NCBI RefSeq assembly: GCF_000425105.1
Contig: NZ_AULD01000015.1
Span: 1-64,000, forward strand
Reading direction: 5' to 3'
DNA length: 64,000 nt
Origin: Agrococcus lahaulensis DSM 17612
GTDB taxonomy: Bacteria > Actinomycetota > Actinomycetes > Actinomycetales > Microbacteriaceae
Part shown: piece by piece, positions 6,701 to 63,825 of the stretch
Layout of the letters: each line of letters starts with the position of its first letter
Position numbering within the stretch: the stretch's first letter is position 1
Position numbers and translations under genes: made by a program
Notes under the pieces: model-generated
The model's input: the letters and a program-made list of their open reading frames with translations, nothing else
Databases searched by the model: none
Told to the model about the DNA's origin: nothing

Positions 6701-6761
6701 TCAGAAGCTCGGTGCTTTCTTCGAGCGGTTTTTCGGGCTGAGCGCCGGGGGTGGCGACTGA
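3720..6761 (+). CDS. hsdR: Type I restriction-modification system endonuclease/translocase subunit HsdR
   Basis: This 1013-residue motor and nuclease subunit has the expected order. An N-terminal PD-(D/E)xK nuclease (HSDR_N) contains the E-x-K element in MVHIELKRRG, near residue 175. Two helicase domains follow, with Walker A TGSGKTLTSF (near residue 333), a DEAD-type box DECHRSQFG (near 430), motif III-like GFTGTPIF, and motif VI QAYSRTNRI (near 710). A C-terminal helical region contacts the methylase core. It translocates DNA with ATP and cuts unmodified DNA. The ATG overlaps the hsdS stop by four bases, and the TGA shares one base with the next ATG. Length is normal and no key motif is missing. 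Confidence 0.96.
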   Translation: MSDLAPRKYDPIAVSSESTVVAEYIPDAAGAGSYQSEAELERELIRLLESQAYEYLPITSEAQLVANLRTQLEVLNSVTFSDAEWDQFFSERIAGANDGIVEKTVRIQEDHVQLLKRDDGSVKNILLIDKQNIHNNRLQVINQYEIGQGEGGSARSNRYDVTVLVNGLPMVHIELKRRGVDIREAFNQIDRYQRDSFWAGSGLFEYVQLFVISNGTLTKYYSNTTRRQHLSEAAGSKRVRKTSNSFEFTSWWADAQNKPIQDLSAFAKTFFAKHSLLNILTKYCVLTADRMLLVMRPYQIVATERILQKIEISTNYKTLGTVAAGGYVWHTTGSGKTLTSFKAAQLASKLPSVDKVLFVVDRKDLDYQTMREYDRFEKGAANSNTSTKVLKKQLENPGARIIITTIQKLSTFIAANKGHAIYDGHVVIIFDECHRSQFGDMHTAITKAFRRYNLFGFTGTPIFSANSGSGGNPQLKTTEQAFGEKLHTYTIVDAITDKNVLPFRIDYVNTIKVGNVIDKQVSAIDTEKALLAPERISEIVKYTLEHFDQKTKRAEHYTLGERRVRGFNALFATASIEAARTYYNHFQLQQEGLPSDKRLKIGLIYSYGANDAVEDGALDEEGFDTGALSMDARSFLEDAIQDYNDMFGTSFDTSADRFQNYYKDLSLKLKTREIDLVIVVNMFLTGFDATTMNTLFVDKNLRAHGLIQAYSRTNRILNSVKTYGNIVSFRDLEEETNDAIALFGNKDARGVVLLKPYSEYYNDYAEKVTELLNAFPLGEQIIGEAAQKEFIKLFGAILRLQNILTSFDEFEGSALLTDRQGQDYRSVYLDLYAEFRKDKDADKEQINDDVVFEIELIKQVEINVDYILMLVQKYRDERGDGDDKEIRAEITRAVDASPTLRNKKDLIEDFVDSLSVDGEIDQEWRAFIAAKREAELETIINEENLRPDETRVFVETAFRDGQIRTSGTAITKVLPPASRFSADGGHGEKKQRVIQKLGAFFERFFGLSAGGGD

Positions 6762-10113: not shown

Positions 10114-11456
10114 AGCTGATTAAGCACTTCGACGCCTTCCTCAAGAACAGGGTCAATTTGAGTGACGGGCGCATCGAGACGCTCGACAAGCGGGTTGACG
10201 CAGTGAGTAGTTTTCTTTCGAGTGACGACGACGTCATCTCGAACAACTACATCGACCTGATTCCGCAGGGTTCCTACGCCCATCGCACGATCATCAATCC
10301 GGTCGACGCGAACGACGAGTTTGACGCCGATGTATTGCTGGATATGAACGAAGTCGATGGCTGGGAGGCAGAGGACTACGTCGAGCATCTCTACCAGGTC
10401 TTCCGATCGAACGGCACCTACAAGGACAAGGTCAGTCGCCGAAGCCGATGCGTCACGGTGAACTATGCGGGTGAGTTCCACATGGACGTGGTGCCGTTCT
10501 TGACTCGGCACGGCGAGCGGTTCATCACGAACCGCAGCACCAACCAGTTCGAGCGTACGAACCCTGAGGGGTTCAATGAGTGGCTCGATGGCCAGAATCG
10601 CATCACGAGCGGGCGACTGGTCAAGGTCATCCGCTTGCTCAAGTACATCCGGGACTTCAAGAACAACTTCTCGGTGAAGTCCGTGATCCTGACGATCTTA
10701 GTTGGCGAGCAGGTGAACGATGCGGCGCTCTGGGCAGACCCAGATCACTATAAGGACGTGCCGACGGCGCTCGTTAACCTCCTGACAGACCTCAACGACT
10801 ACCTGCAAGCGAATCCGTCGATGCCGAGCATCGATGACCCAAGTTGTCCGACAGAGAACTTCAATCATCGTTGGGATCAAGATCAGTACGCCAACTTCCG
10901 TAACTGGATTGCGACGTACACCAGCTGGGCGAAGGATGCCTACGATGAGACAGACGTAGACGAGAGTCACACGAAGTGGCGGAAGCTTTTCGGCGACAAG
11001 TTCGGCACCTACGATACGAACAGCTCTAAAGCATCGGAGGCCCACCGTTCGATTGCGGGTGTCCGCGATACAGAGGAGTTCATCGAGCACAAGTTCGCAG
11101 GCGTTGCACTCAACCCGGCCTATTCCATCAAGCTGCAGGCAAAGACCGTAAGTCGAAACGGGTGGCGCAACTTTGTGCTCGCGACCCGCGGCAACAAAGT
11201 TAGCCCTGGGCGAAGCATCAAATTCAGTATCAAATCGTCGAACCTTCCTGGCTCGTACGAGCTGTGGTGGAAGGTTCGAAACGTCGGAGCGGAAGCGATC
11301 GCCAAGAACATGATCCGAGGGCAAATTGAGCCAGACGATGGAAGCCGCTCCCGAACGGAGCCCGCAAGTTTTCGAGGGAGCCATTACGTCGAAATCTACG
11401 CAGTCCAGAACGGTGTCGTCGTTGCCAAAGATCACCACCCAGTTCTCATCCAGTGA
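10110..11456 (+). CDS. CBASS nucleotidyltransferase (CD-NTase) with C-terminal AGS-C sensor domain
   Basis: This 448-residue cGAS/DncV-like enzyme has a nucleotidyltransferase core with the GS motif (QGSYAHRT, Gly54-Ser55), metal-binding Asp72 and Asp74 in DEFDADVLLDM, and a third carboxylate, Asp126, in FHMDVVPF, so all catalytic positions are present. A helical domain of the OAS1_C/tRNA-NTase type follows. From about residue 325 comes a beta-rich AGS-C (adenylyl/guanylyl cyclase and SMODS C-terminal sensor) domain, with YELWWKVRNVG and the terminal GSHYVEIYAVQNG region. The enzyme would make a cyclic oligonucleotide on infection to activate the patatin encoded just before. No ubiquitin-like transfer genes (cap2/cap3) or HORMA/TRIP13 genes accompany it, so it resembles the short type I CBASS. 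The nucleotide made cannot be told by eye. Confidence 0.88.
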   Translation: MKLIKHFDAFLKNRVNLSDGRIETLDKRVDAVSSFLSSDDDVISNNYIDLIPQGSYAHRTIINPVDANDEFDADVLLDMNEVDGWEAEDYVEHLYQVFRSNGTYKDKVSRRSRCVTVNYAGEFHMDVVPFLTRHGERFITNRSTNQFERTNPEGFNEWLDGQNRITSGRLVKVIRLLKYIRDFKNNFSVKSVILTILVGEQVNDAALWADPDHYKDVPTALVNLLTDLNDYLQANPSMPSIDDPSCPTENFNHRWDQDQYANFRNWIATYTSWAKDAYDETDVDESHTKWRKLFGDKFGTYDTNSSKASEAHRSIAGVRDTEEFIEHKFAGVALNPAYSIKLQAKTVSRNGWRNFVLATRGNKVSPGRSIKFSIKSSNLPGSYELWWKVRNVGAEAIAKNMIRGQIEPDDGSRSRTEPASFRGSHYVEIYAVQNGVVVAKDHHPVLIQ

Positions 11457-11973: not shown

Positions 11974-12153
11974 TGTCGTTCTCGCGAGCCGCGCGGTTGA
12001 CGTCGACCTGCCGCCGAGGGGACTCCATCGGAGGGTTGATGTCGAGCCGTGGACGTCATTCCAACGTCCGATGCGAACCGTCGGCCTGAGGCATAGCGTC
12101 GTAGGCGAACCGATGATCGCTGCCGCTTGTGCGGGCGCGGAAGGGAACCCTGC

Positions 12154-13890
12154 ATGCTCTCCATCTCCGGCCGCTCGCGGCACGCTCGACCCGGAGCGCG
12201 CTCGCGCGGGACCGCGCCGGTCGTTGCAGGCCTGGCGCTCGTGATCGGTTCGGCGGTGCTCGTCGGATGCACGCCCGCAGCAGCCACCCCGGAGGAGCGG
12301 GCGACCACTGCTCTGGACTCAGCATCGGACGAGCTCAGCGCAATCGTCGCGGGCTTCGCTCCCGAGGACTGCATCGATGGGGCGCTTCCCGTCAGCGTGG
12401 AGGAGGAGCGGCTGACGGCGGTCTTGCCCGCCGCGGACGACCCGTCGCAGGCGGCCGACCGCTCGTTCGCGCGCACGATGGTCGAGGGCGCCGGGCTCGG
12501 CGACTTCACCGCTGCCTTCGCCGAGGAGGTCTGCGGGCAGGAGTCTCTCGCCGATGCAGTGGCCGTCATCGAGCGGCTGGGGTCCACGCTGTGGCAGGAC
12601 GCCGTCGCTCGCGCGCAAGCGATCGGCGAGGTCGACGGGGACCTGCCCGCGAGCGATGACCGCCCGCTCTACTGGGCGCGCCTCGAGGCCATGGCCGTGC
12701 TGCACCAGTGGAGCCCGGGCTTCGCGCTCTCCACCGAGGAGCGCGCGTCGCTGGTCGACGCCTTCGACCGCGCGGCCCGCGGCATGCTCGACATCGACCT
12801 ACCTGCCGGCGACCAGGTGACCCGCGTGCTGGTGAGCGGTTTCGACCCCTTCACCCTCGACGGCGGCGCGACGGGCGACGCCAGCGGGACCGTCGGCAAC
12901 CACATCCGCCACGGCAACCCGTCGGGCGCGATCGCTCTGGCGCTCGACGGCACCACGACGGCCGCGCCCGACGGCAGCACGGTGCACTACGAGGCGTACA
13001 CGCTGCCGGTGAACTACCCCGAGTTCGAGCGCGGGTATCTGGAGGACACCGTCGGGCCGCTGCTCGGGGCAGGCGACGACTGGCTCGACGCATCGATCAC
13101 CGTGAGCCAGGCGGGCGGCTCGTTCTTCGCGCTCGAGCAGTGGAACGGCCGCTATCACGGCGACGTCGCCGGCAACGACGGCTTCGCGCCCTGCCCGCCC
13201 GCCGCGTTGACCGGAACCCCGCAGCTGGCGCAGGACAACGACGGCTGCAACATCCAGGTGCCGGAGCGCTGGGGCGGCGGCGACAGCCTGACGGATCCGC
13301 CGCAGTGGACCGAGACGACGCTGCCGATCGAGCAGATGATCGCGGCGCGCACCGGCGCGGACGTGCCCCGCCCGGCCGGCAGCAGCTGGGAGGACGAGTC
13401 GGTCGCCTTCGGCGTCGTCTGGAACACCAACTACACCTACTTCCCGGACTGCGAGTCCGCCGACCTGGCGGACGCCTGGCAGCGCGAGGAGGCGTACCCG
13501 CCCGCCGTCGAACCGACGCCCCCGCCCGCGGACTCCTGTGCGCGCAGCGGGGGAGGCGGCGCCTACCTCTCGAACGAGTCGGGCTACCGCAACACGCTCC
13601 TGCGCGATCGGGCCGGCCTCGACATGCCCGCGGGACACATCCACACGCCCGACATGCAGCACTTCGACACGGACTTCGCCGTGACGGATGCGACGTTCGA
13701 GGCGTGGCGGGACGCCATCGTCGCGCAGGCACGCGAGCTCATCGAGGTCGTGGGGGGCGCACAGCTGACGAGCGCGCCGCGCGTCAAGGCTCCGCAGCCG
13801 CTGGCTGCGTCGGCGCGGCGAGTCCGGGCTCCTCAGTGCTCGGCACGACCGCGACCGGGCACGGCATGTTCATCAGGAGATCGTGGCTGA
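12154..13890 (+). CDS. Secreted lipoprotein related to pyroglutamyl peptidase (family C15 fold)
   Basis: The ATG at 12154 is chosen because AAGGGA lies seven bases upstream and a lipoprotein signal follows, with the lipobox LVGC at Cys39. After a helical region (40-220) comes a C15-like domain: VLVSGFDPFT near residue 225, NPSGAIALAL, and SQAGGSFFALEQWNGRYHG, which matches the segment around the family's catalytic Glu. Near the end, LSNESGYRN replaces the usual SNxAGxxxCN and appears to lack the nucleophilic Cys, while GHIHTP keeps the His. It may therefore be a non-peptidase member. At about 578 residues it is far longer than cytosolic Pcp (about 215). The last 107 bases overlap the convergent stress-protein gene. 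Confidence 0.75.
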   Translation: MLSISGRSRHARPGARSRGTAPVVAGLALVIGSAVLVGCTPAAATPEERATTALDSASDELSAIVAGFAPEDCIDGALPVSVEEERLTAVLPAADDPSQAADRSFARTMVEGAGLGDFTAAFAEEVCGQESLADAVAVIERLGSTLWQDAVARAQAIGEVDGDLPASDDRPLYWARLEAMAVLHQWSPGFALSTEERASLVDAFDRAARGMLDIDLPAGDQVTRVLVSGFDPFTLDGGATGDASGTVGNHIRHGNPSGAIALALDGTTTAAPDGSTVHYEAYTLPVNYPEFERGYLEDTVGPLLGAGDDWLDASITVSQAGGSFFALEQWNGRYHGDVAGNDGFAPCPPAALTGTPQLAQDNDGCNIQVPERWGGGDSLTDPPQWTETTLPIEQMIAARTGADVPRPAGSSWEDESVAFGVVWNTNYTYFPDCESADLADAWQREEAYPPAVEPTPPPADSCARSGGGGAYLSNESGYRNTLLRDRAGLDMPAGHIHTPDMQHFDTDFAVTDATFEAWRDAIVAQARELIEVVGGAQLTSAPRVKAPQPLAASARRVRAPQCSARPRPGTACSSGDRG

Positions 13891-17799: not shown

Positions 17800-20022
17800 T
17801 CAGTCCTCCTGCGCGACCGGCTCGAGCGTGAGGAACAGCCCGCCGTAGGGCGGCAGGCTCACGCTGAAGCTCTGCAGGTCGTCGACGTGGGCGATGCCCT
17901 CGCCGGTCGCGGCATCGATCACCGCGTGCTGCGTCGGCAGCGCCTCGGAGTGCACGGTGCCGTCGACGCCCTCGCCCGAGAAGTTCAGCACCGTCACCTG
18001 GATCGGCGCGTCGTCGGCGTCGGGCTTGCCGTCGTCGAGCCGGTGCACGAGCACGAGCATCGCGGGGTGCGCGACGTGCGGCACGTCGAGCTGCGTCGCG
18101 GTCGCAACGCCGTGGTCGCGGCGGATCCGCAGCACCTCGGCGAGCCGGTTCACGAAGGATCCCGGCTGCTCGATCTGCGCGGGGAGCGAGCCGTAGAGCG
18201 AGCGGCCGCGGGGCATGCCGGCCGACGACGTCATGGCGTCGGGCGCAGCGTCGATGAGGTCGTGCGCGCCGCGCTCGATCCAGCGGGTGTCGCCGGTGTC
18301 GATGAGGTCGCGCACGTCGTCGGCGGGGAGCGTCAGCATGCCGGTGAGGTCCCACCCCGAGAGCGCGAAGACGCCCGGCTGCCACGCGTTGTACTTCGCG
18401 AGCAGGATGTGGGCGTCGCGGATCGCGGGCACGGCGTCCTCGGTGATGTCGTCGAGGGTCGCGAAGCCCTGCGTCGCCGCGATGAGCGACGCGGTCGTGC
18501 AGGCGATGCCGTTCTGCGTGAAGACGCGGTTGTAGTCGGCCTGCTCGGTGAGCGTCTCGGTGAGCTCGGCGCGGATGAGCTCGGCGAGGTCGCCGCCGGT
18601 GATCTCCTTGTGGCGGAAGGGGTAGACCTCGTCGCGGTGCCGCGTCGCCCAGTGCACGAGCTCGTAGGTGAGCTCGTCGTGGTTCTGCAGGCCGTGCACG
18701 AGCCCGACCGGCTCGACGCCCAGCTCGAGCGACGACATGAGCGTGAGCCGCAGGAATTCGGTGTCGCCGGTCGCGAGCGCGTGGTGGTAGCCGGGGCGGC
18801 TGACGAAGTCGTAGGAGAGATCGGCGCCGACCGCGCTCGTGTCGCGGATGTCCTCGATCGTGAGGTTGAGCTCCTGGAACGTGAAGCCGCCGACCTTCCG
18901 CACCATGCCGGCGATGATGTGGTTCGCGGCGTGCGAGAGCGGATGCCCCTCCGACCAGGCGGGCAGGCCCTCCGCGCTCTTCTCGACGCCGAGGAAGCCG
19001 TTCGCGTCGAGGCGCAGGGCGCTCGTGCCGAGGTCGCCGAGCGAGTGGAGCGCGTCGCCGATCACGAGCCGCATGCCCGCGAACGTGGGGTCGAGCCAGT
19101 TGATCGAGGGCTGCCCCTGCTTGAAGTAGTGGAGGTAGACCCAGCGGCGCTCGACGCCGTCGACGCCGAGCACGGGCGGGGTCGCGCTCCAGTTCGTCTC
19201 CTTCACGCCGGGCATGTAGAAGATGACGCGCTGCAGCTCGCCGATGATGTAGCCGCGGTCGCTCAGCTCGCGTTCGGCGGCCGCGTCGAGGTTCGCCGCA
19301 TCGCGGCCCTCCGGCACCTCGGGCAGCAGGTGCCAGTCCTCCGGCGGGATCTCGACCATGTGATAGATGCCGGGGTAGTCCTTGAACGCCATCTCGGCGA
19401 GCCGGAAGTCGGCGCCCTTGCCCGTGTGGCCCGGCACGATGTCGTCGATGATCGAGCCGCTGTGGTCGTCGGCGACGTCGGAGAGCCGACGGAACGCATC
19501 CTCGTCGCCGAAGGCGGGATCGATCTGCGTGCTGATCCGGTCGAAGTGGCCGTCGACGCTCGGCGTCTCCATCCAGCCGGTGATGCCGCCGGCGCGCTTG
19601 ACGGGGCCGGTGTGGAGGCCGTTGATGCCGATGTGCTCGAACGCCTCCCAGAGCGCCTCCTCGCCGAGCGCGTCGAGGAACGACTGGCCGGGCTTCGTGA
19701 TGAGCGAGATCGGGTAGGCGGTGAACCACACGTCGGCGACGCCGATCGCGCGCCGCGCGTCGGGGCGGGCATAGGGATTGCGCCACATCGACGGCTGGCC
19801 CGAGAGCTGCCGGCTGAGCACATCCGCGTCCTTGAGCATCGACTGGCGCACGAGCCACTCGACGTAGGAGGGGTTGGATGCGTTGGCGGTACGGGGGTCG
19901 GTGCGGAACCGCCGCACGCTGCCGCTGCGGAACTGGTCGCGCGGGCGCAGGCGACGGGGACGAGCGGGGTAGCGCTGCTCGTCGTAGGTGATCTCGGTGC
20001 CGTGCTCGTCGGGGTCATCCAC
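17800..20022 (-). CDS. GH13 alpha-amylase family enzyme, trehalose synthase-like
   Basis: This protein of about 740 residues starts at a GTG ([16 protein letters not shown]). It has a GH13 barrel with RLDANGFLG (nucleophile Asp near residue 338), [11 protein letters not shown] and a C-terminal beta domain ending [12 protein letters not shown]. Distinctive stretches such as [11 protein letters not shown] and [14 protein letters not shown] suggest a trehalose synthase or glucosyltransferase branch rather than a secreted amylase; there is no signal peptide. Classical TreS openings (YKDAVFYEL) are absent, so the exact reaction is uncertain. The same frame remains open far upstream through other genes, which is only a GC effect. 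A second GH13 gene lies 1.1 kb away. Confidence 0.75.
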
Positions 20023-20076
20023 GCATGCAGTCCTATCACGCCAGGGTGGGCGCTCCCGTGGTGCGAGGATCGACCC

Positions 20077-21114
20077 ATGCGCGCCCTCCTGATCGATGCC
20101 GTCCGCTCGAGCCCCGCGGTGCGCGAGGCGCCCGCGCCGGCCGCTCCCGCGGGCGGCGTGGTGGTCGAGGTGCACGCGACGGGCCTGTGCCGCAGCGACT
20201 GGCACGCGTGGGCCGGGCACGACGACATCGCCTTCCCGCACGTGCCCGGTCACGAGCTCGCGGGCGTCGTCGCCGAGATCGGCGAGGGGGTCGAGCGGTG
20301 GCGCGTCGGCGACCGCGTGACGGTGCCGTTCGTGTGCGGCTGCGGGCGATGCGAGTGGTGCCTCGCGGGCGATGCGCAGGTGTGCCCGGCGCAGCAGCAG
20401 CCGGGCTTCACGCACTGGGGCTCGTTCGCCGAGCGCGTCGCGCTCCACGCGGCCGACGCCAACCTCGTCCGGATCCCCGACGGCGTCGACTTCGCGACCG
20501 CGGCCGCGCTCGGCTGCCGCTTCGCGACCGCCTACCGCGCCCTCGTGGCGCGAGCGCGCGTGCAGGCGGGGGAGTGGGTCGCGGTCGTCGGCGCCGGCGG
20601 TGTCGGCCTCAGCGCCGTGATGATCGCTCGCGCGCTCGGCGCACGGATCGTGGCGGTCGACCGCAATCCGGCGGCGCTCGAGCTCGCCGCCTCGCTCGGG
20701 GCGGAGGCGACCGTGCTCGCCGACGGGCGCGACGTGCCCGCGGACGTCACGGTGATCACGGGCGGCGGCGCGCACGTCGCGGTCGACGCCGTCGGGAGCG
20801 AGCAGACGGCGTCGGATGCGGTGCTGGGCTTGCGCCGTCGCGGCCGGCACGTGCAGATCGGCCTCCTGCCGCCGGTCGACGGGCACCCGCGCGTGCCGAT
20901 GGATCGCGTGATCGCGTGGGAGCTCGACGTGCTGGGCAGCCACGGGATGGCGGCCGCCGACTACCCGGGGATGCTCGAGCTCATCGAGCGGGGCGTGCTC
21001 GAGCCGCAGCGCCTCATCGAGCGCACCGTCTCGCTCGCGGAGGCGGCGGCGCTGCTGCCGGGCTTCGACCGCTCGAGCGCCGCGGGCGTGACGATGATCG
21101 ACCCGCGCCGCTGA
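20077..21114 (+). CDS. Zinc-dependent alcohol dehydrogenase
   Basis: This 345-residue medium-chain dehydrogenase has catalytic zinc ligands in GLCRSDWH and PGHELAG, and structural zinc cysteines in [17 protein letters not shown]. Its Rossmann fold has [20 protein letters not shown] near residue 175. The substrate is not evident; the closest general pattern is the zinc-binding alcohol dehydrogenase group acting on primary alcohols or aldehydes. It lies between two minus-strand GH13 genes, reading the other way, so it is not in their operon. A TTG/CTG start is not needed: ATG at 20077 gives the usual N-terminus. Confidence 0.88.
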
Positions 21115-21121
21115 CGAGCGA

Positions 21122-22474
21122 CTAGGAGAGCACCGCCCAGCCGCGCGGGCCGAGCCCCACGGCGCCGCTCGAGAGCTCGCCGTCGCCGGCCTCGACGCTC
21201 GTCGCGTCGGCGGCCGGCAGCCGGACCGGCTCGTCGGCGAGGTTGAGCGCGGTGATGACGCGGTCGCTCGCGGTCGCCGTGCGGAGCACGATGGATGCGT
21301 TGTCGACGTGCACGACGTCGGTCTGCGCGCGGTGCACCCACGCGTGCCGTCGGCGGAGCGCGAGCAGCGCCGCGTGCACGCCGTACGCGCGCGCCGCCGC
21401 GGGCTCCAGCGCGTCGGGCGCCGACGGCTCCGCGGGGAACTGCGGCCGCACGGCGTCGTCGCCGCCGAGCCGCTCCTCCTTGCGCCCCGTGAAGCCGAGC
21501 TCATCGCCCGCGTAGACCGACGGCGTGCCGGCGACGGTCGCGAGCACGGCCATCGCGTGCGGCACGAAGGCCGGGCCGACCGCGGTCGCGATGCGGGTGA
21601 CGTCGTGGTTGCCGATGAAGGTCGAGGGCACGAAGTCGCGCACGAGCGCGCTGTGGCGCTCGATCGCGTGCGCGAGCTCGTGGCAGTTGCGGTCGGCGAT
21701 GCCGTGCCAGATGCCCTGCCACAGCTCGTACTGCGTGAGCGAGTCCATCGTCGACGCGCGCACGATCGCCGCGGCATCGCCGTGGATGACCTCGCCGGTG
21801 AAGTAGGCGCCGGGGAAGCGCTCGCGCACGCGCGGCAGCACGCGCGCCCAGAACGCCGGCGGCACGGCGTAGGCCGCGTCGAGCCGCCAGCCGTCGATCC
21901 CGCGCTCGAGCCAGTGGGTCATGACGTCGACGACGAGGTCGGCCACGGCATCCGACTCGTGGTCGAGCGCGACGAGCTGCTCGTGCCCCTCGAACACGTC
22001 GGCGGGGACTTGCTCGCCCGGCGACCAGGCGTCCCAGTGGACGCGGAAGAGCCCGGCGGTCTCGGCCCCCGGCCCGTGCGCCTCGAGGGCGCGGAAGGCG
22101 GGATGCGCGCGGCCGACGTGGTTGAAGACACCGTCGAGCAGCACGCGGATGCCGCGCTCGCGGCACGCGGCGACGAGCCGGTCGAAGTCGGCCTCGTCGC
22201 CGAGCCGCGGGTCGATGCGGAAGTGGTCGATCGTGTCGTAGCCGTGCGTCGCGGAGGCGAAGATCGGCCCGAGCTGCAGGCCGTTGAGCCCGAGCGCGAC
22301 GAGATGGTCGAGCCACGCCTCGAGGTGGCCGAGCCGGTGCTCGATCGCGGTCTCGGCCGGCGGCGCTTCGGGGCGGATGGGCGCGCCGACGAAGCCGAGC
22401 GGGTAGACGTGCCACCACATGACGTGCTGCACCCAGTCGGGCTCGGCGTGCGGTCGCGCTGCGGGATCGGTCAC
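21122..22474 (-). CDS. GH13 alpha-amylase family glycosyl hydrolase
   Basis: This 450-residue cytosolic protein starts at one of two adjacent GTG codons (22474 preferred, after GGATGGAG). It shows the GH13 catalytic set: GVFNHVG (region I), GWRLDAAYA with the nucleophile Asp near residue 198, [10 protein letters not shown] with the acid/base Glu near 226, and [10 protein letters not shown] with the third acid near 290. It lacks a signal peptide and carbohydrate-binding modules, so it probably works on intracellular malto-oligosaccharides. It may share a role with the larger GH13 enzyme at 17800-20022. Exact specificity is not assigned. Confidence 0.88.
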
Positions 22475-38108: not shown

Positions 38109-38885
38109 ATGGGCAACCGCATCTCCGAGCTGCTCGCCGGCGCCGGCCTCATGCTGCGCGGCTTCGGCACCTGGGCGCGCGATCCGCGGCTCATGCTGCT
38201 CGGCGCCGTGCCCGCGCTCATCGTCGGCGCGCTCATGCTCGCCGTCGTGGTCGTCGTGAGCTTCCAGGTGGGCGGATGGGCGACATGGCTCACGCCGTTC
38301 GCCGACGGGTGGGACCCGGGCTGGGCGGGCGCGCTGCGCGTCGCGCTCGCGCTCGGGCTCATGGTCGGCGTCGTGGTGATGTGCGTGCTGACATTCGCCG
38401 CGATCACGCTCGCCGTCGGCGATCCCTTCTACGAGCGCATCTCGCGCACGGTCGACGAGCGGCTCGGCCGTGCGGGCGAGGCGCCGGAGCTCGGCTTCTG
38501 GCGGTCGGCGGCGAAGGGCGTGCGCGACGCGGTCAAGCTCATCGCCATGGCGATCGGCACGGCGGCCGTCGTCTTCGTCGTCGGGCTCGTGCCGCTCGTC
38601 GGCACGGTGCTCGGCCTCGTCGTCGGCGCGGTGCTCGGCGGCCGGGCGCTCGCGCGCGAGCTCACGGGCTACGCGGGCGACGCGCGCGGACTGAGTCTCG
38701 ACGAGCGTCGCGCGCTGCTCGCGGCGCACCGGTGGCGCTCGACGGGCTTCGGGATGGTCGCCTACGTGCTGCTGCTCGTGCCGGTCGTCGCGGTCGTCGC
38801 GACCCCCGTCGCGGTCGTCGGCGCGACCCTGCTCGTGCGCGACCTCCGCGGCGAGCCGACGACCGCTCCGTCGCCCTCGTCGTAG
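38109..38885 (+). CDS. EI24 domain-containing membrane protein
   Basis: This 258-residue protein has four to six hydrophobic segments and the EI24/CysZ pattern: an N-terminal GAGLMLRGFGTWARDPRLML, then AVGDPFYERISRTVDERLG and the late GLSLDERRALLAAHRWRSTGFG. In E. coli the related CysZ carries sulfate; in actinobacteria the family's role is not settled. It reads away from the EamA gene, with 47 bases between the starts, and is followed 29 bases later by the first FemX-like gene. Confidence 0.88.
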   Translation: MGNRISELLAGAGLMLRGFGTWARDPRLMLLGAVPALIVGALMLAVVVVVSFQVGGWATWLTPFADGWDPGWAGALRVALALGLMVGVVVMCVLTFAAITLAVGDPFYERISRTVDERLGRAGEAPELGFWRSAAKGVRDAVKLIAMAIGTAAVVFVVGLVPLVGTVLGLVVGAVLGGRALARELTGYAGDARGLSLDERRALLAAHRWRSTGFGMVAYVLLLVPVVAVVATPVAVVGATLLVRDLRGEPTTAPSPSS

Positions 38886-38914: not shown

Positions 38915-40000
38915 ATGCCCGCTGCAACCGTCCGCCGCGCGACCCCTGGCGAGATCGCCGACTGGGATGCGCTCATCGAGGCGAACCCCGACGGCGGGCA
39001 CATGGTGCAGTCGAGCGCGTTCGCCGCGACGAAGCGCTTCGACGGGCTCGAGCCCGTGCACCTCGTGATCGACGCCCCGCTGCCCGCCGGGGCGCCGTCA
39101 GGGGAGTCGACCGAGCGCATCTACGCCCTCGCGCTCGAGGGCAAGGTGTCGCTCGGCCGCTACTGGTACCTGCCGATGGGGCCGACGGCGACCGACATGG
39201 CGCCCGTCGTCGAGGCGCTCCGCGCGTTCGCGAAGGCCGAGCCGGGCCTGCTCGTCGTGAAGGTCGAGCCGCACCTCGAGCGCAGCCCCGAGCGCATCAA
39301 CGAGCTCGTCGCGCTCGGCCTCGAGCAGAGCCGCGACATGCAGGTCATGACCCACACCGTCGTGCTCGACCTCGCGCAGGGGGAGGAGGCGCTCTTCGCG
39401 TCGTTCTCGCAGATGATCCGCCGGCAGGTGCGCGGCGCGATCAAGAAGGGCTACCGCGTCGAGCGGCCCGAGCCGAGCCCCGAGACCTTCGACCGCATGC
39501 ACGCGATGATGCTGACGGTCGCGGGCGGCAAGGGCATGGCGGGCATGCGCGAGCGCGCCTACTACGACCGCTTCTGGAGCGAGTTCGCCAAGGCCGGCAC
39601 CGGCCGCTTCTACTTCGGCTACGACGACGACTCCGGCGAGCCGCAAGCCGGCATCTTCGTCACGACCGCGGGTCGCACGGCCGTCTACAAGGACGGCGGC
39701 TCGCGCCCCGACCGCAAGATCAACGGCGGCTCGGCGCTGCTGCTGTGGACGGCGATGCAGGACGCGATCGCGGACGGCAAGCTCGCCTTCGACCTCGCCG
39801 GCACGCCGCCGCCCGAGCGCGCCGACGACCCGACGCATCCCTTCCACGGCCTCGCGCAGTTCAAGCTGCGCTTCGGGCCGATCACGAGCTTCCTGCCGTC
39901 CTTCGACCTCGTGCTGCACCCCGTGCGCCATCGCTTGTGGGAGGACGTCGTGCGGCGCGTCGAGTGGCGCATCAAGAAGGGCCCGGACACGCTGCGATGA
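38915..40000 (+). CDS. FemA/B/X-like peptidyltransferase, first of three
   Basis: This 361-residue protein belongs to the Fem family (two GNAT-like folds), which transfers amino acids from aminoacyl-tRNA to peptidoglycan precursors in the cytoplasm. Family features: DWDALIEANPDGGHMVQSSAFA at the start, LFASFSQMIRRQVRGAIKKGYRVE, and a C-terminal half with RTAVYKDGGSRPDRKINGGSALLLW and FKLRFGP. It lacks the coiled-coil arm of staphylococcal FemA. Its stop overlaps the next paralogue by four bases. The amino acid transferred cannot be deduced. Confidence 0.87.
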   Translation: MPAATVRRATPGEIADWDALIEANPDGGHMVQSSAFAATKRFDGLEPVHLVIDAPLPAGAPSGESTERIYALALEGKVSLGRYWYLPMGPTATDMAPVVEALRAFAKAEPGLLVVKVEPHLERSPERINELVALGLEQSRDMQVMTHTVVLDLAQGEEALFASFSQMIRRQVRGAIKKGYRVERPEPSPETFDRMHAMMLTVAGGKGMAGMRERAYYDRFWSEFAKAGTGRFYFGYDDDSGEPQAGIFVTTAGRTAVYKDGGSRPDRKINGGSALLLWTAMQDAIADGKLAFDLAGTPPPERADDPTHPFHGLAQFKLRFGPITSFLPSFDLVLHPVRHRLWEDVVRRVEWRIKKGPDTLR

Positions 40001-41049
40001 CCGACATGCGACTGCGACGGGCGACCGAGGCCGAGCTGCGCGACTGGGACGAGCTCGTGCTGTCGAACCCCGACGGCGGCCAGTTCACCCAGACGCTCGC
40101 GTTCGCCGAGCTCAAGCGCTGGGACGGCTTCGAGACCCACCACCTCGTCTTCGACGCCGAGCAGCCGGTCTACGCGCTCGCGCTCGAGCGCGACGCGTGG
40201 ATCGGCCGCTTCTGGTACTTCCCGTGCGCGCCCTTCCACCCCGACATGGCGGCCGTCGTGCGCGCCGTGCGCGCCTTCGTCGAGCGCGAGCACCCGCGGC
40301 TCATCTCGGTCAAGCTCGAGCCGAGGCTCCCGCGCGACGCGACGACGCTCTCGATGCTCGCGGATGCCGGGCTCGCGCAAGCGGAGGACGTCCAGCTCCA
40401 CACGCACACCGTGATCATCGACCTCGAGCGCACCGAGGAGGAGATCCTGGCCTCGTTCTCGAAGACGGCGCGGAAGCTCATCCGCCGCGCCGAGCGCGAC
40501 GGCTTCACGGTCGAGCGCGTCGAGGGCGACGAGGCGCTCTTCGACCTCGCGTGGCAGCGGATGCAGACGATCCGCGGCGGGCAGGGCCTCGAGGGCATGC
40601 GCGGCGAGGACTACTACAAGACGATCTGGCGCGCCTTCACGAAGCGCGGGCAAGCGGACTGGTGGCTCGGGCACGACGGCGGCGAGGGGCCGCAGACGGT
40701 GACCTTCACGATCCCGTTCGGCCGCATCGCGATCGACAAGGACGAGGGCTCGCGGCCCGATCGCCGCATCGAGGGCGGCGCGCACTACGGCCGCTGGATG
40801 CGCGCGCGGCACTACCGCGAGCGGGGCTTCGCCGGGCTCGACATGATGGGCGCACCGCCGACGTGGGCGAAGGACGACCCGGACCACTGGATGGCCGGGC
40901 TCAGCCGCTTCAAGCAGCAGTTCGGCGAGGTCGTCGACTTCGCGCCGAGCCACGACCTCGTGCTGCGGCCCGGCGCGCAGCGGCTGTGGCGGAAGGCCGT
41001 GCGCCCCGTCGAGTGGCGCGTGAAGAAGCGGTACACGGGTGTCTGGTGA
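39997..41049 (+). CDS. FemA/B/X-like peptidyltransferase, second of three
   Basis: This 350-residue protein is a paralogue of its neighbours: DWDELVLSNPDGGQFTQTLAFA, ILASFSKTARKLIRRAERDGFTVE, IAIDKDEGSRPDRRIEGGAHYG, and a C-terminal RFKQQFG region. The ATG overlaps the previous stop by four bases, so the pair is translationally coupled. Divergence from the other two suggests a different amino acid or acceptor position on the peptide stem, but that is inference. Confidence 0.87.
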   Translation: MTDMRLRRATEAELRDWDELVLSNPDGGQFTQTLAFAELKRWDGFETHHLVFDAEQPVYALALERDAWIGRFWYFPCAPFHPDMAAVVRAVRAFVEREHPRLISVKLEPRLPRDATTLSMLADAGLAQAEDVQLHTHTVIIDLERTEEEILASFSKTARKLIRRAERDGFTVERVEGDEALFDLAWQRMQTIRGGQGLEGMRGEDYYKTIWRAFTKRGQADWWLGHDGGEGPQTVTFTIPFGRIAIDKDEGSRPDRRIEGGAHYGRWMRARHYRERGFAGLDMMGAPPTWAKDDPDHWMAGLSRFKQQFGEVVDFAPSHDLVLRPGAQRLWRKAVRPVEWRVKKRYTGVW

Positions 41050-41089
41050 CGGCACGTCTAGTGGCGGCACGTCTGGTGATGGAGGAGTG

Positions 41090-42157
41090 ATGCAGGGCTC
41101 GGGCTTCGCGCTGCGCGACGCGACCGCGGCGGAGATCGCGGACTGGGACGCGCTCGTCCTCACGAACCCGGACGGCGGGCAGTGGACCCAGTCGAGCGCC
41201 TACGCGACGCTCAAGCGCACCGAGCGGCTGCACCCGCGGCACCTCGTGCTCGAGGGGCCCGAGACGGTCTACGCGCTCGCGCTCGAGCACCGCTCGCTCG
41301 CGGGCCGCTTCTGGTACTTCGCGACGGGGCCCGGCGCCTCCTTCGAGCACTTCGGCGCGATCGCCGACGCCATCCGCGCAGCACGCGACGGCGCGGCGAA
41401 GGGCGTCTACGCCGTCAAGGTCGAGCCGTTCGAGGTCGACACCCCCGAGCGCCGCCAGGCGCTCGCGGCCGCCGGCTACCGCGCGGCGAACCCCGTCCAG
41501 CAGAACACCTACACGGTGCTCGTCGACCTCACGCGGCCGGTCGACGAGATCTTCGCCGGCTTCAAGAAGAGCCTGCGCAACCACATCCGCTACGCCGAGC
41601 GCAACGGCTACCGGGTCGAGAAGGTCGAGCCGGGCGAGGAGACGTACCGCACGATGTACGCGCTCATGCAGACCGTCTCGGGCGGCAAGGGCGTCGAGGG
41701 CATGAAGCCCTACGAGTACTACCGCACCCTGTGGGGCGCCGCCGTCGCGCAGGGGAGCGGCCACTTCTGGTTCGGGTACGACGGCGCGCACGACGGGCCC
41801 CAGGCATCCGCCTTCATGATCCGCTTCGGTCGCTACGCCCTCGCGAAGGACGGCGGCTCGGTGCCCGACCGCGCGATCCGCGGCGGCGCGCACCTCATCC
41901 GCTGGAGAGCGATGCAGTGGTTCAAGGAGCAGGGCGCGGAGGTCTACGACGCGTACGCGACCCCGCCGTCGTGGCAGGCGGACGACACCTCGCACCGCCT
42001 GCACGGACCGGGCGTCTTCAAGCGCGTCTTCGGACCGATCGTCGACCACGTGCCGACGCACGACCTCGTGCTCGACGCGCGCCGCTACCGCCTCTTCCTG
42101 CGCCTGCTGCTGCCGATCGAGCGCCGGGTGCGGCGCCGCCCGTGGGGCATCTGGTAG
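41090..42157 (+). CDS. FemA/B/X-like peptidyltransferase, third of three
   Basis: This 355-residue protein is closest in layout to the first: DWDALVLTNPDGGQWTQSSAYA, IFAGFKKSLRNHIRYAERNGY, YALAKDGGSVPDRAIRGGAHL. I start at ATG 41090 behind GGAGGAG; a GTG at 41039 would add a low-complexity Gly/Ser/Thr stretch encoded by short direct repeats and overlap the previous gene by 11 bases. With the two genes before it, it forms a compact three-gene unit. Confidence 0.85.
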   Translation: MQGSGFALRDATAAEIADWDALVLTNPDGGQWTQSSAYATLKRTERLHPRHLVLEGPETVYALALEHRSLAGRFWYFATGPGASFEHFGAIADAIRAARDGAAKGVYAVKVEPFEVDTPERRQALAAAGYRAANPVQQNTYTVLVDLTRPVDEIFAGFKKSLRNHIRYAERNGYRVEKVEPGEETYRTMYALMQTVSGGKGVEGMKPYEYYRTLWGAAVAQGSGHFWFGYDGAHDGPQASAFMIRFGRYALAKDGGSVPDRAIRGGAHLIRWRAMQWFKEQGAEVYDAYATPPSWQADDTSHRLHGPGVFKRVFGPIVDHVPTHDLVLDARRYRLFLRLLLPIERRVRRRPWGIW

Positions 42158-42172: not shown

Positions 42173-42637
42173 TCAGCTCACTGCGCGGCCGCAGATCTCG
42201 TCGAGGGTCGTGCCGAGCAGCTCGGCCGAGCGGCGGTACTTGCGCAGCATCTTCTCGCGCGTCGCGGCGTCGGGCATCGCGTCGAGGCGCCACTGCTGCG
42301 CGTTGTCGCGGAGGTCGGCGCGCTTGACCTCGAGCGCGAGCTCGTCCTCGAGGATGCGCGCCATCCACTCGCGCATCGGCTCGTCGTCGCGACGCGTCAT
42401 CGCGTCGATCGCGCGCATGATGCGCGGCGGGAATCGCTCCCCGACGAGCTCCTGCACGGTGATCGACCCCCACTCGAGCACATCGTGGAGGATCGCGACC
42501 GTGCGCTCCTCGTCGCCCTCGACGTCGAGCATCACGCGCATCGCGTGGGCGACGTAGGGCTCGCCCTGACGGTCGGTGCGACCGTCGTAGGCGCGCGCGG
42601 CGACCGAGATCGCGTGCAGCAGGTCACCGTCCACCAT
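42173..42637 (-). CDS. HD-domain protein, (p)ppGpp hydrolase-like fold
   Basis: This 154-residue protein has the HD fold as in the RelA/SpoT hydrolase domain and Mesh1: AARAYDGRTDRQGEPYVAHAMRV (first His), AILHDVLEWG (His-Asp pair) and KRADLRDNA (last Asp). This order (H...HD...D) suits a metal-dependent phosphohydrolase. It is a stand-alone domain without synthetase or regulatory parts. Substrate: possibly (p)ppGpp or another nucleotide; not proven. Confidence 0.75.
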   Translation of the reverse strand: MVDGDLLHAISVAARAYDGRTDRQGEPYVAHAMRVMLDVEGDEERTVAILHDVLEWGSITVQELVGERFPPRIMRAIDAMTRRDDEPMREWMARILEDELALEVKRADLRDNAQQWRLDAMPDAATREKMLRKYRRSAELLGTTLDEICGRAVS

Positions 42638-42659
42638 GCCTCCGAGGGTATCCGGCGGC

Positions 42660-42665
42660 TATCCT
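42660..42665 (+). promoter_or_regulatory. -10 box of the gene at 42672 (leaderless)
   Basis: TATCCT lies six bases before the ATG, so transcription would start at the start codon. No clear -35 box. Confidence 0.4.
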
Positions 42666-42671
42666 GATCGC

Positions 42672-43187
42672 ATGTCACGCGTCGCCGACCCCGCACAGCT
42701 CGCTCGCCTGCTGCGCGGCACCTGGGCGATCCGCGCGACGACCTTCCCGTACTGGACGCACGCGCAGCGCAAGAACCCGCGGGTGACGTTCGAGCTCGTG
42801 CAGAGCTCGCCGCTCCAGCTGCGCGAGGTCTACGAGTACCACCGGCCCGACAAGGGCGACCGCGAGGTGATCGCCGAGGCGCTCTGGGCCGGCCGGCACT
42901 TCTCGTGGCGCATGCTCGGCCGCTCGCGGCTGCTCTCGAGCGCCTACGTCGTCTCCGACACGCCCGCGACGCCCGACATCGTCGCGATCCACTACGGCAA
43001 GTCGTCGCTGCTCGGGCAGAGCGCGGTCTCGATCCTCGCGCGCGCCCACCTCGACCCCGACGCGGTGCGCCGCGCGGTCGCGATCGACACGCACTCGTTC
43101 GAGCTCACCGCCGAGGAGTTCTGGCGCCTCCAGTGGCTGACGCCCTACGCGCCCTCGGCGCCCGCCTCGAGCGACTCCCGCGCCTGA
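42672..43187 (+). CDS. Conserved hypothetical, lipocalin-like
   Basis: This 171-residue protein starts with LARLLRGTWAIRATTFPYW and continues with alternating short strands (VTFELVQSSPLQLREVYEYH, HFSWRMLGRSRLLSSAYVV), which suggests a small beta-barrel of the lipocalin or DUF6314 type that binds a hydrophobic ligand. No signal peptide. I cannot name the family with certainty. Its 3' end overlaps the convergent FUSC-type gene by 43 bases. Confidence 0.6.
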   Translation: MSRVADPAQLARLLRGTWAIRATTFPYWTHAQRKNPRVTFELVQSSPLQLREVYEYHRPDKGDREVIAEALWAGRHFSWRMLGRSRLLSSAYVVSDTPATPDIVAIHYGKSSLLGQSAVSILARAHLDPDAVRRAVAIDTHSFELTAEEFWRLQWLTPYAPSAPASSDSRA

Positions 43188-44247: not shown

Positions 44248-45432
44248 ATGGGGCCCATGCTCGACAATCCCGCCGGAGTGCTCTCGAGGCTCGTCGCCGA
44301 GAGCGGCAGGGAGCTCGTCGACTTCCAGCAGAAGGATGTCGAACCGGTCAGCGAGGGCTTCGTGGTCGGCTACGCGTGCGGTGTCCGCACGCGCGAGGAC
44401 GCGATCGAGCGACTGACGATCTACGTCAACACCTCGCCGAGCGCGCCCGTCGACGAGCACACCGTCGAGCTCCTCGATGCGGCGGGCCGCCGGCTCACCG
44501 CGTGGGTGTACCCGCAGGACCCGTCGCTGCCGTCCCTGCCCGCCGTCTCGTACCCGGAGGCCGCAGGCGTCGTGCTCGCGAAGTTCGGCATCGCCGCCGA
44601 GGGCGCGACGCTGCGGATGGAGGCGTACCGCCCCGGCAAGCGGGCGGTGCTGCAGGTCGCGACCGCGACCGAGCGCTGGTTCGCCAAGGTCGTGCAGCCG
44701 TCGCTCGCCGCGACCATCCACGACCTGCACGAGCGCTTCCGCGCCGCGGGCGTGCCCGTGCCGCGGTCGATCGGCTTCTCCGACGCCGGCCTCGTGCTGC
44801 TCGGGGAGCTCCCCGGGGTGCCGGCGATCGACGTGTTCGAGCGCATCGACCGCGCCCGGTTCGCGCGCGGCCTCGACGAGCTCACCCAGCACATCGCCCA
44901 GGTGCCGGTGACGGTCGGCGCGCGGGAGTCGCTCGCTCGGCGGGTCGACTGGTACGCCGAGCGGATGGAGGAGACGGCGCCGGTGTTCGCGCGCCAGACC
45001 ACGCGGCTCGCCGCGATGATCGCGGAGCGCTACGCCGCGACGAGCGTGCCCCGGCCCGTCACGATCCACGGCGACCTCCACCTGGGCCAGATCTTCGTCG
45101 CCGAGGACGACCCGTCGCGCATCACGGGCATCCTCGACATCGACACCGCGGGGCTCGGCGACCCCGCCGACGATCGCGGGGCGCTCTTCGGGCACGTCGT
45201 CGTGTCGTCGGTCGAGCGGGAGGCCGGCTCGCCGGGGGTCGCGGCCCTCGCGGCCTTCGCCGACGAGCTGCAGTCAGGCTGGCGCGGCGACGAGCGCGTG
45301 ACCGCGATCGCAGCGACGCACCTGCTGGGCCATGCGCTCGCGAACGCCGGCCGCGGCGACGACCGCGGGGCGGCTGCGGCGCAGCGGCTGCTCGAGCGCG
45401 CCGCCTCCGTGCTCGGCGCGCCGCCCGCCTAG
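44248..45432 (+). CDS. Phosphotransferase with APH/maltokinase-like fold
   Basis: This protein of about 394 residues has a kinase-like fold: ATP-binding Lys in ERWFAKVVQP, catalytic ITIHGDLHLGQIF, and metal-binding GILDIDTAGLGDPADDRG. In the catalytic motif Gln replaces the usual Asn (HGDxHxxN), as in maltokinases, so a sugar kinase is as likely as an antibiotic-resistance enzyme. Start at 44248 or 44257; both are in frame. The stop overlaps the convergent luciferase-like gene by four bases. Confidence 0.75.
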   Translation: MGPMLDNPAGVLSRLVAESGRELVDFQQKDVEPVSEGFVVGYACGVRTREDAIERLTIYVNTSPSAPVDEHTVELLDAAGRRLTAWVYPQDPSLPSLPAVSYPEAAGVVLAKFGIAAEGATLRMEAYRPGKRAVLQVATATERWFAKVVQPSLAATIHDLHERFRAAGVPVPRSIGFSDAGLVLLGELPGVPAIDVFERIDRARFARGLDELTQHIAQVPVTVGARESLARRVDWYAERMEETAPVFARQTTRLAAMIAERYAATSVPRPVTIHGDLHLGQIFVAEDDPSRITGILDIDTAGLGDPADDRGALFGHVVVSSVEREAGSPGVAALAAFADELQSGWRGDERVTAIAATHLLGHALANAGRGDDRGAAAAQRLLERAASVLGAPPA

Positions 45433-61647: not shown

Positions 61648-63825
61648 TCAGCGCTCGTCGAGCTCGAGCAGCCGGCGGAAGAGCGAGAGCACCTCGTCGG
61701 GCAGGAGGGGCTCGGCGACCGTGACGTCGCAGCGCGTCTCGATCGTCACGCGCCACAGCGGCGCGTCGGGCAGCACCTGCCCGTCGAGCTCGGCGAGCAC
61801 ACCCGAGGCGACGAGGGTGTCGAGCCGATCGCGATCCTCGCCCGGGATGATCTCGAGCTCGAGCGTCGCGGCGCGCGTGCGGCCGAGCATCCCGCCCGTC
61901 CGCGCGACGCGCACCGCGTCCTCGATCGGCGCGTCCGGCTCCGCGCCCTCGGTCACGCCGACCTCGCGCCACGCCGCGCGCACCGCCTCGGTCTCGCGCG
62001 CATCCGCCCCGAACCTCGCCTCGGCGGCCGCCTCGGTCGCCCGTGCGAACGCGACGAAGTCGGCCTCGGCCGAGAGGCCGCCGGTGAGCGCGTCGAACCA
62101 GATCCGGCCCGGCGCCTCCCACGAGGGGCCGCCGATCGCGGTGGCGACGAGGTGGAACGCGCGGTTGGGGATGCCGGAGTTGATGTGCACGCCGCCGAGG
62201 TCGTCGCGCGTGACGACGAAGTCGCGCATGTGGCCCGGCTGCGGGTCCTTGCCGAGCACGGGGTCGTCGAAGGCGGTGCCGGGCGCGGCCATCGAGCGCA
62301 GCGCGACGCCCTGCACGCGATCGGTGAAGACGCCCGCGCCGATGAGCCAATCCGCCTCGACGGCGTCCTGGCCGAGCGAGTGCTGCTTCACGAGCGAGCC
62401 GAGCACGTCGGCGATCGACTCGTTGAGCGCGCCGGGCTGGTCGCGGTAGACGAGGTCGGCGGTCGCGGCGATCACGCCGTGCCCGAGCTCGTGCCCGATG
62501 ACGTCGATCGCGCCGGTGAAGCCGGCGAACACCTCGCCGTCGCCGTCGCCGAACACCATGCGCTCGCCGTCCCAGAACGCGTTGTCGTAGCGCGTGCCGT
62601 AGTGGACCGTCGCTCGGAGCGGCATGCCGCGCCCGTCGAGCGAGTCGCGGCCGAAGGCCTCGAGCAGCATGCGCCACGCCGCGCCGAGCCCGTCGTAGGC
62701 CTCGTCGGCGGCCGTGTCGCCCGTCGCGGGGCCGCCCTCGGTGCGCACCTCCTCGCCCGGGAGCGTCGTCGTGCCGCGCGCGTCGCTGATGACGCGATCG
62801 GGCGAGGGCTCGCCCGGCACGCGCGCCGGTGCCGGGAGCCCGATGCCCTGTCGGGAGCGACCGGCTCGCTCGCCGCGCACGTCGCGGTCGACGCCGAGCG
62901 TGCGCTCGGCGATGCGCGCGGCGGGCACGTCGGCGGCGGCGAGCCGCTCGAGCAGGTAGGGCGGCACGATGCCGCGGCGCACGGCGTGCACCGCGTCGTC
63001 GGCGCGGGGCGCGGCCGAGCGGGCCTCGAGCGCGTCGTGGATCGCGGGCGCGATGAGCCCGGCCCACAGCTCGTAGCCGGCGGCGGAGGGGTGGAAGCCG
63101 TCGGATGCGTGCCACTGCGGCTCGAGGATCGCGGGCGTGGGGAGGTGGAGCACGTCGGGCGCCGCGGCGGCGATGCGCTGGAGGGCGTCGTCGAGGCTGC
63201 GCGCGTGGCCGCCGAGGAGCGAGCGGATCGGCTGCGGGAGCCACTCGAAGGTGTCGATCTGCGGGGCGCCCGCGACGCACAGCACGCCGCTGGGCCGCAG
63301 GTGGCGCCGGAGGCCGTCGAGGAGCGAGCGCACGGTCGCCGTGAACGCGCCTCGGCTGACGAGCTGCAGCGCGTCGTTGGCGCCGACGAGCAGCAGGATG
63401 GCGTCGAAGGGCTCGTGCGCCTGCCGGTCGAGCACGGGGAGGTGCCGCTCGAGCACCGCCGCGGCCGTCGACCCCTCCTGCCCCTCGATGCGCCACGCGA
63501 CGCTCCGGTCGCCGAGCGATGCGAGCCGCTCGGCGAGCCGCACGGCGAGCGCCTGTTCGAGCCGCTCCGAGCCCACGCCGGTCGCGGTCGAGTCGCCGAC
63601 GAGCAGCAGCCGCAGCGGCTCGGCGCCGCTCGCCGGGCCTACCGTGCCCCAGCGCCGCCCCTGCGGCTCGGGCAGCCACACGAGCGCCGACTGCAGCTGC
63701 TTGGCCTGCCGCAGCAGCACCGGCGCGAGGGCGAAGGTCGCTGGCCGCGCGAGCCGGTGGATGCCGCGCTCCGCTCGGCGCAACGCGGTCGCGCCGAGCG
63801 CTCCGAGCCGTTCCGCGAATCCCAT
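61648..63825 (-). CDS. Three-domain protein: SGNH hydrolase, protealysin-like M4 peptidase, emfourin-like inhibitor domain
   Basis: This 725-residue protein reads as one frame. Residues 72-265 form an SGNH/GDSL hydrolase: VGDSTATGVG (Ser79), LVGANDALQ (148-151 GxND) and DGFHPS (Asp242, His245). Residues 278-300, VHAVRRGIVPPYLLERLA, match the PPxxL propeptide of protealysin-type peptidases. The M4 catalytic domain follows: HELGH (445-449), Glu469 in ALNESIADVLG, and His547 in GGVHINSGIPNRAF. Residues 637-725 resemble emfourin, the small protealysin inhibitor (VRVARTGGMLGRT...LFRRLLELDER), usually encoded by a separate gene. No Sec signal peptide, as in protealysins. The ATG is preceded by GAGGGGGCG. 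An assembly fusion is unlikely because domains and frame are intact throughout. Confidence 0.85.
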   Translation of the reverse strand: MGFAERLGALGATALRRAERGIHRLARPATFALAPVLLRQAKQLQSALVWLPEPQGRRWGTVGPASGAEPLRLLLVGDSTATGVGSERLEQALAVRLAERLASLGDRSVAWRIEGQEGSTAAAVLERHLPVLDRQAHEPFDAILLLVGANDALQLVSRGAFTATVRSLLDGLRRHLRPSGVLCVAGAPQIDTFEWLPQPIRSLLGGHARSLDDALQRIAAAAPDVLHLPTPAILEPQWHASDGFHPSAAGYELWAGLIAPAIHDALEARSAAPRADDAVHAVRRGIVPPYLLERLAAADVPAARIAERTLGVDRDVRGERAGRSRQGIGLPAPARVPGEPSPDRVISDARGTTTLPGEEVRTEGGPATGDTAADEAYDGLGAAWRMLLEAFGRDSLDGRGMPLRATVHYGTRYDNAFWDGERMVFGDGDGEVFAGFTGAIDVIGHELGHGVIAATADLVYRDQPGALNESIADVLGSLVKQHSLGQDAVEADWLIGAGVFTDRVQGVALRSMAAPGTAFDDPVLGKDPQPGHMRDFVVTRDDLGGVHINSGIPNRAFHLVATAIGGPSWEAPGRIWFDALTGGLSAEADFVAFARATEAAAEARFGADARETEAVRAAWREVGVTEGAEPDAPIEDAVRVARTGGMLGRTRAATLELEIIPGEDRDRLDTLVASGVLAELDGQVLPDAPLWRVTIETRCDVTVAEPLLPDEVLSLFRRLLELDER

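Follow-up and report, generated by a model that had tools for sequence, protein, structure and literature searches.

Three adjacent FemX-like genes in A. lahaulensis

The window analysed here is a stretch of 64,000 nucleotides from Agrococcus lahaulensis DSM 17612 (contig NZ_AULD01000015.1, positions 1 to 64,000 of the forward strand), and the subject is a run of three adjacent plus-strand genes within it, referred to as A, B and C, whose products are FemX-like aminoacyltransferases. Gene A (38915..40000; 361 amino acids) and gene B (39997..41049; 350 amino acids) overlap by four bases (ATGA). Gene C (41090..42157; 355 amino acids) begins with an ATG located 40 bases past the stop codon of B, and the motif GGAGGAG close upstream is a good ribosome site. 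An in-frame GTG at 41039 is a possible alternative start, which would give a longer C overlapping B; at the B-C junction, an imperfect tandem repeat (41041..41079, plus strand; 15-base unit, 2.6 copies) is open in frame with C from this GTG. The B-C gap ranges from 7 to 60 bases in the 18 three-gene arrays described below. Promoter and terminator scans found nothing exceeding chance, and when the window was scanned for Rfam families and for tRNAs, there were no matches.

The preliminary description of this DNA had proposed three divergent FemX-like proteins encoded in one compact unit, the first two genes overlapping by four bases and the third close behind. The coordinates were correct, and the divergence was borne out by pairwise protein identities of 43-45% (B to A, 45%; C to A, 43%). 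All three proteins pass the cut-off of the Pfam FemAB family (PF02388; 24 bits): A with 48.8, B with 41.5 and C, narrowly, with 24.4 bits. Since 21 of 24 Agrococcus genomes carry the array and the four-base overlap of A and B is present in 20 of these 21, the compact unit is not a product of chance.

Family, fold and key residues

A profile built from 64 relatives was compared with solved structures. The best matches were FemX of Staphylococcus aureus (E 4e-38) and FemX of Weissella viridescens (E 5e-21), followed by FemA and the Fem-like enzymes of streptothricin synthesis. The AlphaFold2 model of A (predicted local distance difference test score, pLDDT, 93) matched eight FemX/FemA entries with Z 29.0-31.8, the streptothricin enzymes with Z 22.6-23.1, and MprF-type lipid enzymes with Z 15-17. 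The model of A thus has the double-GNAT fold of FemX, and B, being 45% identical to A, presumably shares it. The profile alignment contained no counterpart of the helical arm (6SNR residues 240-304), and the long helical insert that marks the S. aureus FemA/FemX subtype was absent from the model of A.

Residues were surveyed in 66 array genes (21 A, 11 B1, 10 B2, 3 C' and 21 C; the forms of B and C' are defined below) with Weissella FemX numbering. The catalytic F304-K305 aligns to F316-K317 of A, F305-K306 of B and F310-K311 of C. The equivalents of F304 and K305, and those of the precursor-binding K36 and Y215, are conserved in all 66 genes; at a third precursor-binding position, R211, 45 genes have R and 21 have K. 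According to the available portion of PMC4964394, the N-terminal domain of these enzymes holds the precursor and the C-terminal domain holds the tRNA. A, B and C are thus FemX-type enzymes and very probably depend on aminoacyl-tRNA, and we are rather confident that they serve as wall ligases.

The chromosomal slot in Agrococcus

The complete array occupies the same position in the 21 genomes, between an EI24 gene and a group of three genes termed HD, x and APH. In the window, the left edge is an EI24/CysZ-like membrane protein gene (38109..38885, plus strand; Pfam EI24, 5.6e-38), which stops 29 bases short of A and might share a transcript with it. The right edge is an HD-domain gene (42173..42637, minus strand), whose HD_4 score of 27.0 bits is just below the Pfam cut-off of 27.2; it is followed by gene x (42636..43187, plus strand), without a Pfam family, and by an APH-type phosphotransferase gene (44248..45432, plus strand). 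EI24 lies upstream of 20 of the 21 arrays and gene x downstream of 20, both misses being due to contig ends. Two genomes have extra DNA between EI24 and A, and no match to the HD gene was obtained at three arrays, those with four genes.

The slot is empty in the remaining three Agrococcus genomes (G003, G013 and G015), where EI24 adjoins HD with approximately 95-111 bases between the two matches. These genomes hold two or three FemX-like matches elsewhere, one of which, in G015, is 55% identical to C, and they form a branch of their own on the tree of flanking genes. Given that the slot is filled in 21 genomes and empty in a separate branch of three, the array was either gained at this slot or lost from it close to the root of the genus.

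Two versions of the B-C block

The protein tree unites the A genes of the 21 arrays in one group and their C genes in another, but it does not unite the middle genes. The middle gene is of the window type, B1, in 11 of the 21 arrays and of a second type, B2, in the other 10, and B2 is placed beside A. Three of the B1 genomes carry four-gene arrays with the order A-B1-C'-C. Among named species, A. pavilionensis has B1, A. baldri, A. terreus and A. sediminis have B2, and A. jejuensis has four genes. In approximately unbiased (AU) tests, B1 and B2 as one clade was rejected (p 0.0008), as was an origin of B2 by late copying of A inside the ten genomes that carry it (p 0.0096); a grouping of B2 with the 18 A genes from three-gene genomes was not rejected (p 0.20). 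These p-values are optimistic, since the groupings of B and A were named after the tree had been viewed; the rpoB+gyrB test described below used the middle-gene labels and is unaffected.

In the three-gene arrays, the C genes follow the type of their neighbour. Those from the 8 genomes with B1 (C1) and those from the 10 genomes with B2 (C2) form separate clades with support of 100/99.9 and 100/99.5. The amino-acid difference in C is 25.3% between types versus 10.8 and 12.2% within them, whereas the corresponding values for A are 13.0% versus 10.3 and 12.2%. At four-fold sites of C the difference is 32.9% between types versus 26.9 and 31.4% within, so that silent change is only slightly raised. 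Nucleotide identity in C is 79.5% between types versus 88.9 and 87.4% within, and in A it is 87.6% versus 89.7 and 87.9%. Along C, the between-type identity is 66.5% in the first 150 bases and rises to about 86-88% at the end.

We then counted type-diagnostic sites, at which no residue is common to both types. C has 36 of them; when its labels were drawn at random 1000 times, the count never exceeded one. None was found in A, in any of the five flanking genes or in rpoB+gyrB, the count resting on only 49 gap-free columns for EI24 and on 654 for rpoB+gyrB (one genome lacks rpoB). Collectively, the two forms of B are non-orthologous, and B and C behave as a cassette of two versions that has been exchanged or alternately lost. 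The FemABX family itself is known; the two-version block, together with its place in a genus with group-B walls, is the new part.

Conflict with the species tree

A species tree was built from rpoB+gyrB of the 21 genomes (5649 columns). The three four-gene genomes fell together, and so did 17 three-gene genomes, among which B1 and B2 were intermixed. Each state changes four times on the best tree, and at least two changes are forced by well-supported branches. The rpoB+gyrB data rejected B1 as a clade (p 2.6e-4) and B2 as a clade (p 2.0e-4). The trees of EI24 and APH also rejected both groupings; the tree of A rejected B2 (p 0.020), with B1 at the margin (p 0.052), and gene x alone rejected neither (AU p 0.26 for B1 and 0.16 for B2). 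Given this conflict, and given that the edges of the slot and A itself are free of type, the B-C block has a history of its own inside the slot.

Exchange of the block between species is the simplest account of this distribution. The pattern might also have arisen with no exchange at all, from a longer ancestral array that held both forms of B and both forms of C and from which some lineages lost one pair and some the other. The four-gene arrays in 3 of the 21 genomes speak for such an ancestor, as does the branching of B2 near A, before or about the split of the 18 three-gene genomes (the grouping that was not rejected above). However, B1 and B2 occur together in none of the 21 genomes, several parallel losses would be needed to produce the changes counted on the rpoB+gyrB tree, and the rise of identity along C resembles the edge of a recombined segment. 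We therefore regard alternate loss as a serious possibility that falls somewhat short of exchange between species.

Distribution in Microbacteriaceae and the group-B wall

The trio model was searched in 60 genomes, its own and those of relatives, and any FemAB gene was sought in a larger draw of 249 Microbacteriaceae genomes from 85 genera. The trio model matched 31 of the 60 genomes, comprising the 24 Agrococcus genomes and seven others with fewer and more distant matches; Pfam FemAB was found in 33 of the 60. In named genomes, the homologues of C occupied 11 loci, all of them in Agrococcus, the nearest being that of A. pavilionensis RW1 (98% identical). A literature search turned up no publication that deals with Fem enzymes of Agrococcus or of group-B walls.

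The preliminary description had linked the trio to the bridge of group-B peptidoglycan. Group-B walls are the rule in Microbacteriaceae, so that an enzyme of the group-B bridge is expected family-wide; FemAB genes were found in only 36 of the 249 genomes (21 of the 85 genera), and the other 213 had no match. Moreover, enzymes that use L-aminoacyl-tRNA are not known to deliver D residues. The bridge of Clavibacter is a single D-diaminobutyrate (D-Dab), as stated in the part of PMC9603630 available to us, and the accessible text of PMC6196244 reports diaminobutyric acid in Agrococcus walls. Considering the 213 genomes without FemAB and the D-Dab bridge, the trio is not a general maker of group-B bridges, and the canonical bridge was ruled out as its product. 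The proposed FemX-type identity was thus upheld and the general link to group-B walls was not. Should the trio have a wall role, that role would be an addition to the group-B wall.

Patchy presence in the family, together with the two alternative versions, is also what would be expected if the arrays were immunity genes against a wall-cutting enzyme, with enzymes of this kind or phage lysins as the force behind their variety; Lif/Epr and Zif, which confer immunity against lysostaphin and zoocin, are examples of such a role. The fixed chromosomal slot throughout the genus speaks against it, and no hydrolase gene was seen among the flanking genes examined. We consider an immunity function improbable.

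Two sets of related genes were noted apart from the array. A further, distant FemAB gene of A. lahaulensis lies outside the window (G000:C4:262101-263075; L054 6057-7121); it has counterparts in most Agrococcus and is closer to single genes of two other genera (G031 and G035). In addition, G060, a genome of another Microbacteriaceae genus, carries three adjacent FemX-like genes (L118 7062-10276), partly in opposite orientation, which are 27-35% identical to the trio.

A proposed wall pathway

In the pathway that we propose, the three enzymes are cytoplasmic ligases of the FemX type, each of which would transfer an amino acid from aminoacyl-tRNA to an amino group of a peptidoglycan precursor. 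The acceptor is most likely the nucleotide-linked precursor, because the enzymes lack the arm, as Weissella FemX does, and keep the precursor-binding residues. One operon would correspond to one pathway, operating in Agrococcus on top of the diaminobutyrate (group-B) wall. The step performed by A would be common to all species. B would perform the variable step, for which two non-orthologous enzymes fill the middle slot across species, and C would work with B in two forms matched to it, B and C being inherited as a block whose distribution departs from the species tree. Candidate acceptors would be the side-chain amine of the position-3 L-Dab and, on the bridge D-Dab, the amine that is free. 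Taken as a whole, our best explanation is a FemX-type wall pathway in which A is common and the B-C part varies, and we give it an even chance.

Several observations weigh against this explanation. The structure model of C is poor (pLDDT 66; only near-identical relatives were available). At the tRNA contact Y254, the tyrosine is limited to A and B2 (31 of the 66 genes), with D in B1 (11) and Ala in C and C' (24), and the equivalent of Y256 is D in all 66; judging by the Y254 changes, A, B1 and C may differ at the donor end. Among the 45 tRNA genes, whose anticodons are unduplicated except for three Met, none was found that would be dedicated to the wall and so point to the residue added. As regards the matching of C to B, third positions of C alone also separate the two types, which plain linkage to B can explain, and the 36 diagnostic sites are not clustered in the acceptor domain (16 of 171 versus 20 of 181 columns; Fisher p 0.73). 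The C genes of the three B1-bearing four-gene arrays are not of the C1 type, since 10 of their sites are C1-like, 13 C2-like and 13 neither. Linkage alone may explain the split of C. Adaptation of C to its acceptor, sought as clustering in domain 1, was not found. An odd 96-base Thr tRNA predicted in L150 had no counterpart among the Rfam matches and was dismissed as spurious.

The changed tyrosines, Y256 throughout and Y254 in B1 and C, would also agree with an acceptor other than peptidoglycan, such that a lipid, a protein or a small molecule is charged. The fold of A extends that far, with matches to the aminoacyl-tRNA enzymes of streptothricin synthesis (Z about 23) and, less closely, to the MprF lipid enzymes, and C weakly matches LPG_synthase_C (13.9 bits, below the cut-off). 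Nevertheless, fold and sequence are clearly nearer to the wall enzymes FemX and FemA, the precursor contacts K36 and Y215 are kept in every array gene, and no biosynthetic gene cluster was found among the flanking genes examined. A non-wall acceptor thus appears unlikely, slightly less so than the immunity function considered above.

The order of action within the proposed wall pathway is a separate question. A stepwise chain predicts a constant A, a varying B and a co-varying C, because a new second residue alters what the third enzyme must accept, and the observed pattern leans toward a sequence with A first; whether the enzymes do act in this order is, in our estimate, evenly balanced. Each enzyme could instead act in parallel, in no order, at a different amino group of the precursor (for example, the side chain of the position-3 L-Dab and the amine of the bridge D-Dab). 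FemABX enzymes are site-specific, and all three array enzymes keep the same precursor-binding residues, as parallel action would have it. On the other hand, the uniformity of A while B and C co-vary is easier to understand if C meets the product of B, even though linkage alone gives the same pattern. We think parallel action rather unlikely, though it deserves more weight than a non-wall acceptor. The most specific form of the sequential pathway is a wall-chemotype locus: an extension or branch of L-amino acids on the D-diaminobutyrate wall would have a constant first residue added by A and two alternative outer parts made by B1-C1 or B2-C2, or a four-step product of A-B1-C'-C in A. jejuensis and its relatives, and the outer parts would be swapped between species as a two-gene cassette. 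So detailed a version, in which the two forms would give two wall chemistries, is put forward tentatively, as something that could hold and probably does not in every part.

FemABX enzymes are described, in the section of PMC4964394 at hand, for walls with Lys or diaminopimelic acid (Dap) at position 3. A genus-wide FemABX set in a group-B genus suggests a wall feature that has escaped description or another use of the family. The two-version B-C block hints that species differ in a wall feature and may exchange it, and the dimorphism allows a plain comparison among cultured, named Agrococcus species. If muropeptides differ along the B-C line, the step and the residue of each enzyme can be read off.

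Other features of the window

A stretch with low G+C content at third codon positions (GC3) at 983-9148 (plus strand) carries a complete type I restriction-modification set (HsdM, HsdS and HsdR) followed by an AAA_13 ATPase that matches PADLOC PDC-S06, and is likely a defence island. An SMODS/AGS_C oligonucleotide cyclase of the CBASS (cyclic oligonucleotide-based antiphage signalling system) kind is encoded at 10110-11456 (plus strand), and an adjoining open reading frame of 587 amino acids (12127-13890) has no Pfam or PADLOC match. On the minus strand, an open frame of 1325 amino acids at 17800-21777 has coding-like GC3 and no Pfam match, and a single frame at 61648-63825 forms an unusual fusion, with matches to GDSL lipase, thermolysin-type M4 peptidase and emfourin.

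Comparison with known systems

Weissella viridescens FemX (PDB 4II9 and 1NE9) has the double-GNAT fold modelled for A (Z 29) and is similar to the array enzymes in its lack of an arm, its catalytic Phe-Lys pair and the residues equivalent to K36 and Y215. The array proteins are, however, only about 19-20% identical to it, Y254 is changed in part of the array genes and Y256 in all of them, and the Weissella enzyme takes a Lys-type precursor.

In S. aureus, femX is located apart from femAB. The fold of A matches S. aureus FemX with Z 31.8 and FemA with Z 30.1; the S. aureus enzymes have the helical arm, whereas the array enzymes do not, and the S. aureus wall is of the Lys type with pentaglycine. 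As the partial text of PMC4964394 has it, FemX, FemA and FemB form a likewise related set of three, which act one after another to build a single bridge.

MurM and MurN of pneumococci are likewise FemABX enzymes, which branch the stem peptide. Mosaic murM alleles in pneumococci arise by recombination and are a precedent for recombining FemABX alleles. Unlike the murM alleles, which are versions of one gene, the middle slot in Agrococcus is filled by two non-orthologous enzymes with the next gene co-varying.

Finally, the Fem-like enzymes of streptothricin synthesis (Sbb17, Sba18 and Orf11) are aminoacyl-tRNA-dependent and have the same fold as A. They differ in their lower similarity, in their small-molecule acceptor and, as far as the available excerpt of PMC12945691 describes them, in belonging to antibiotic pathways.

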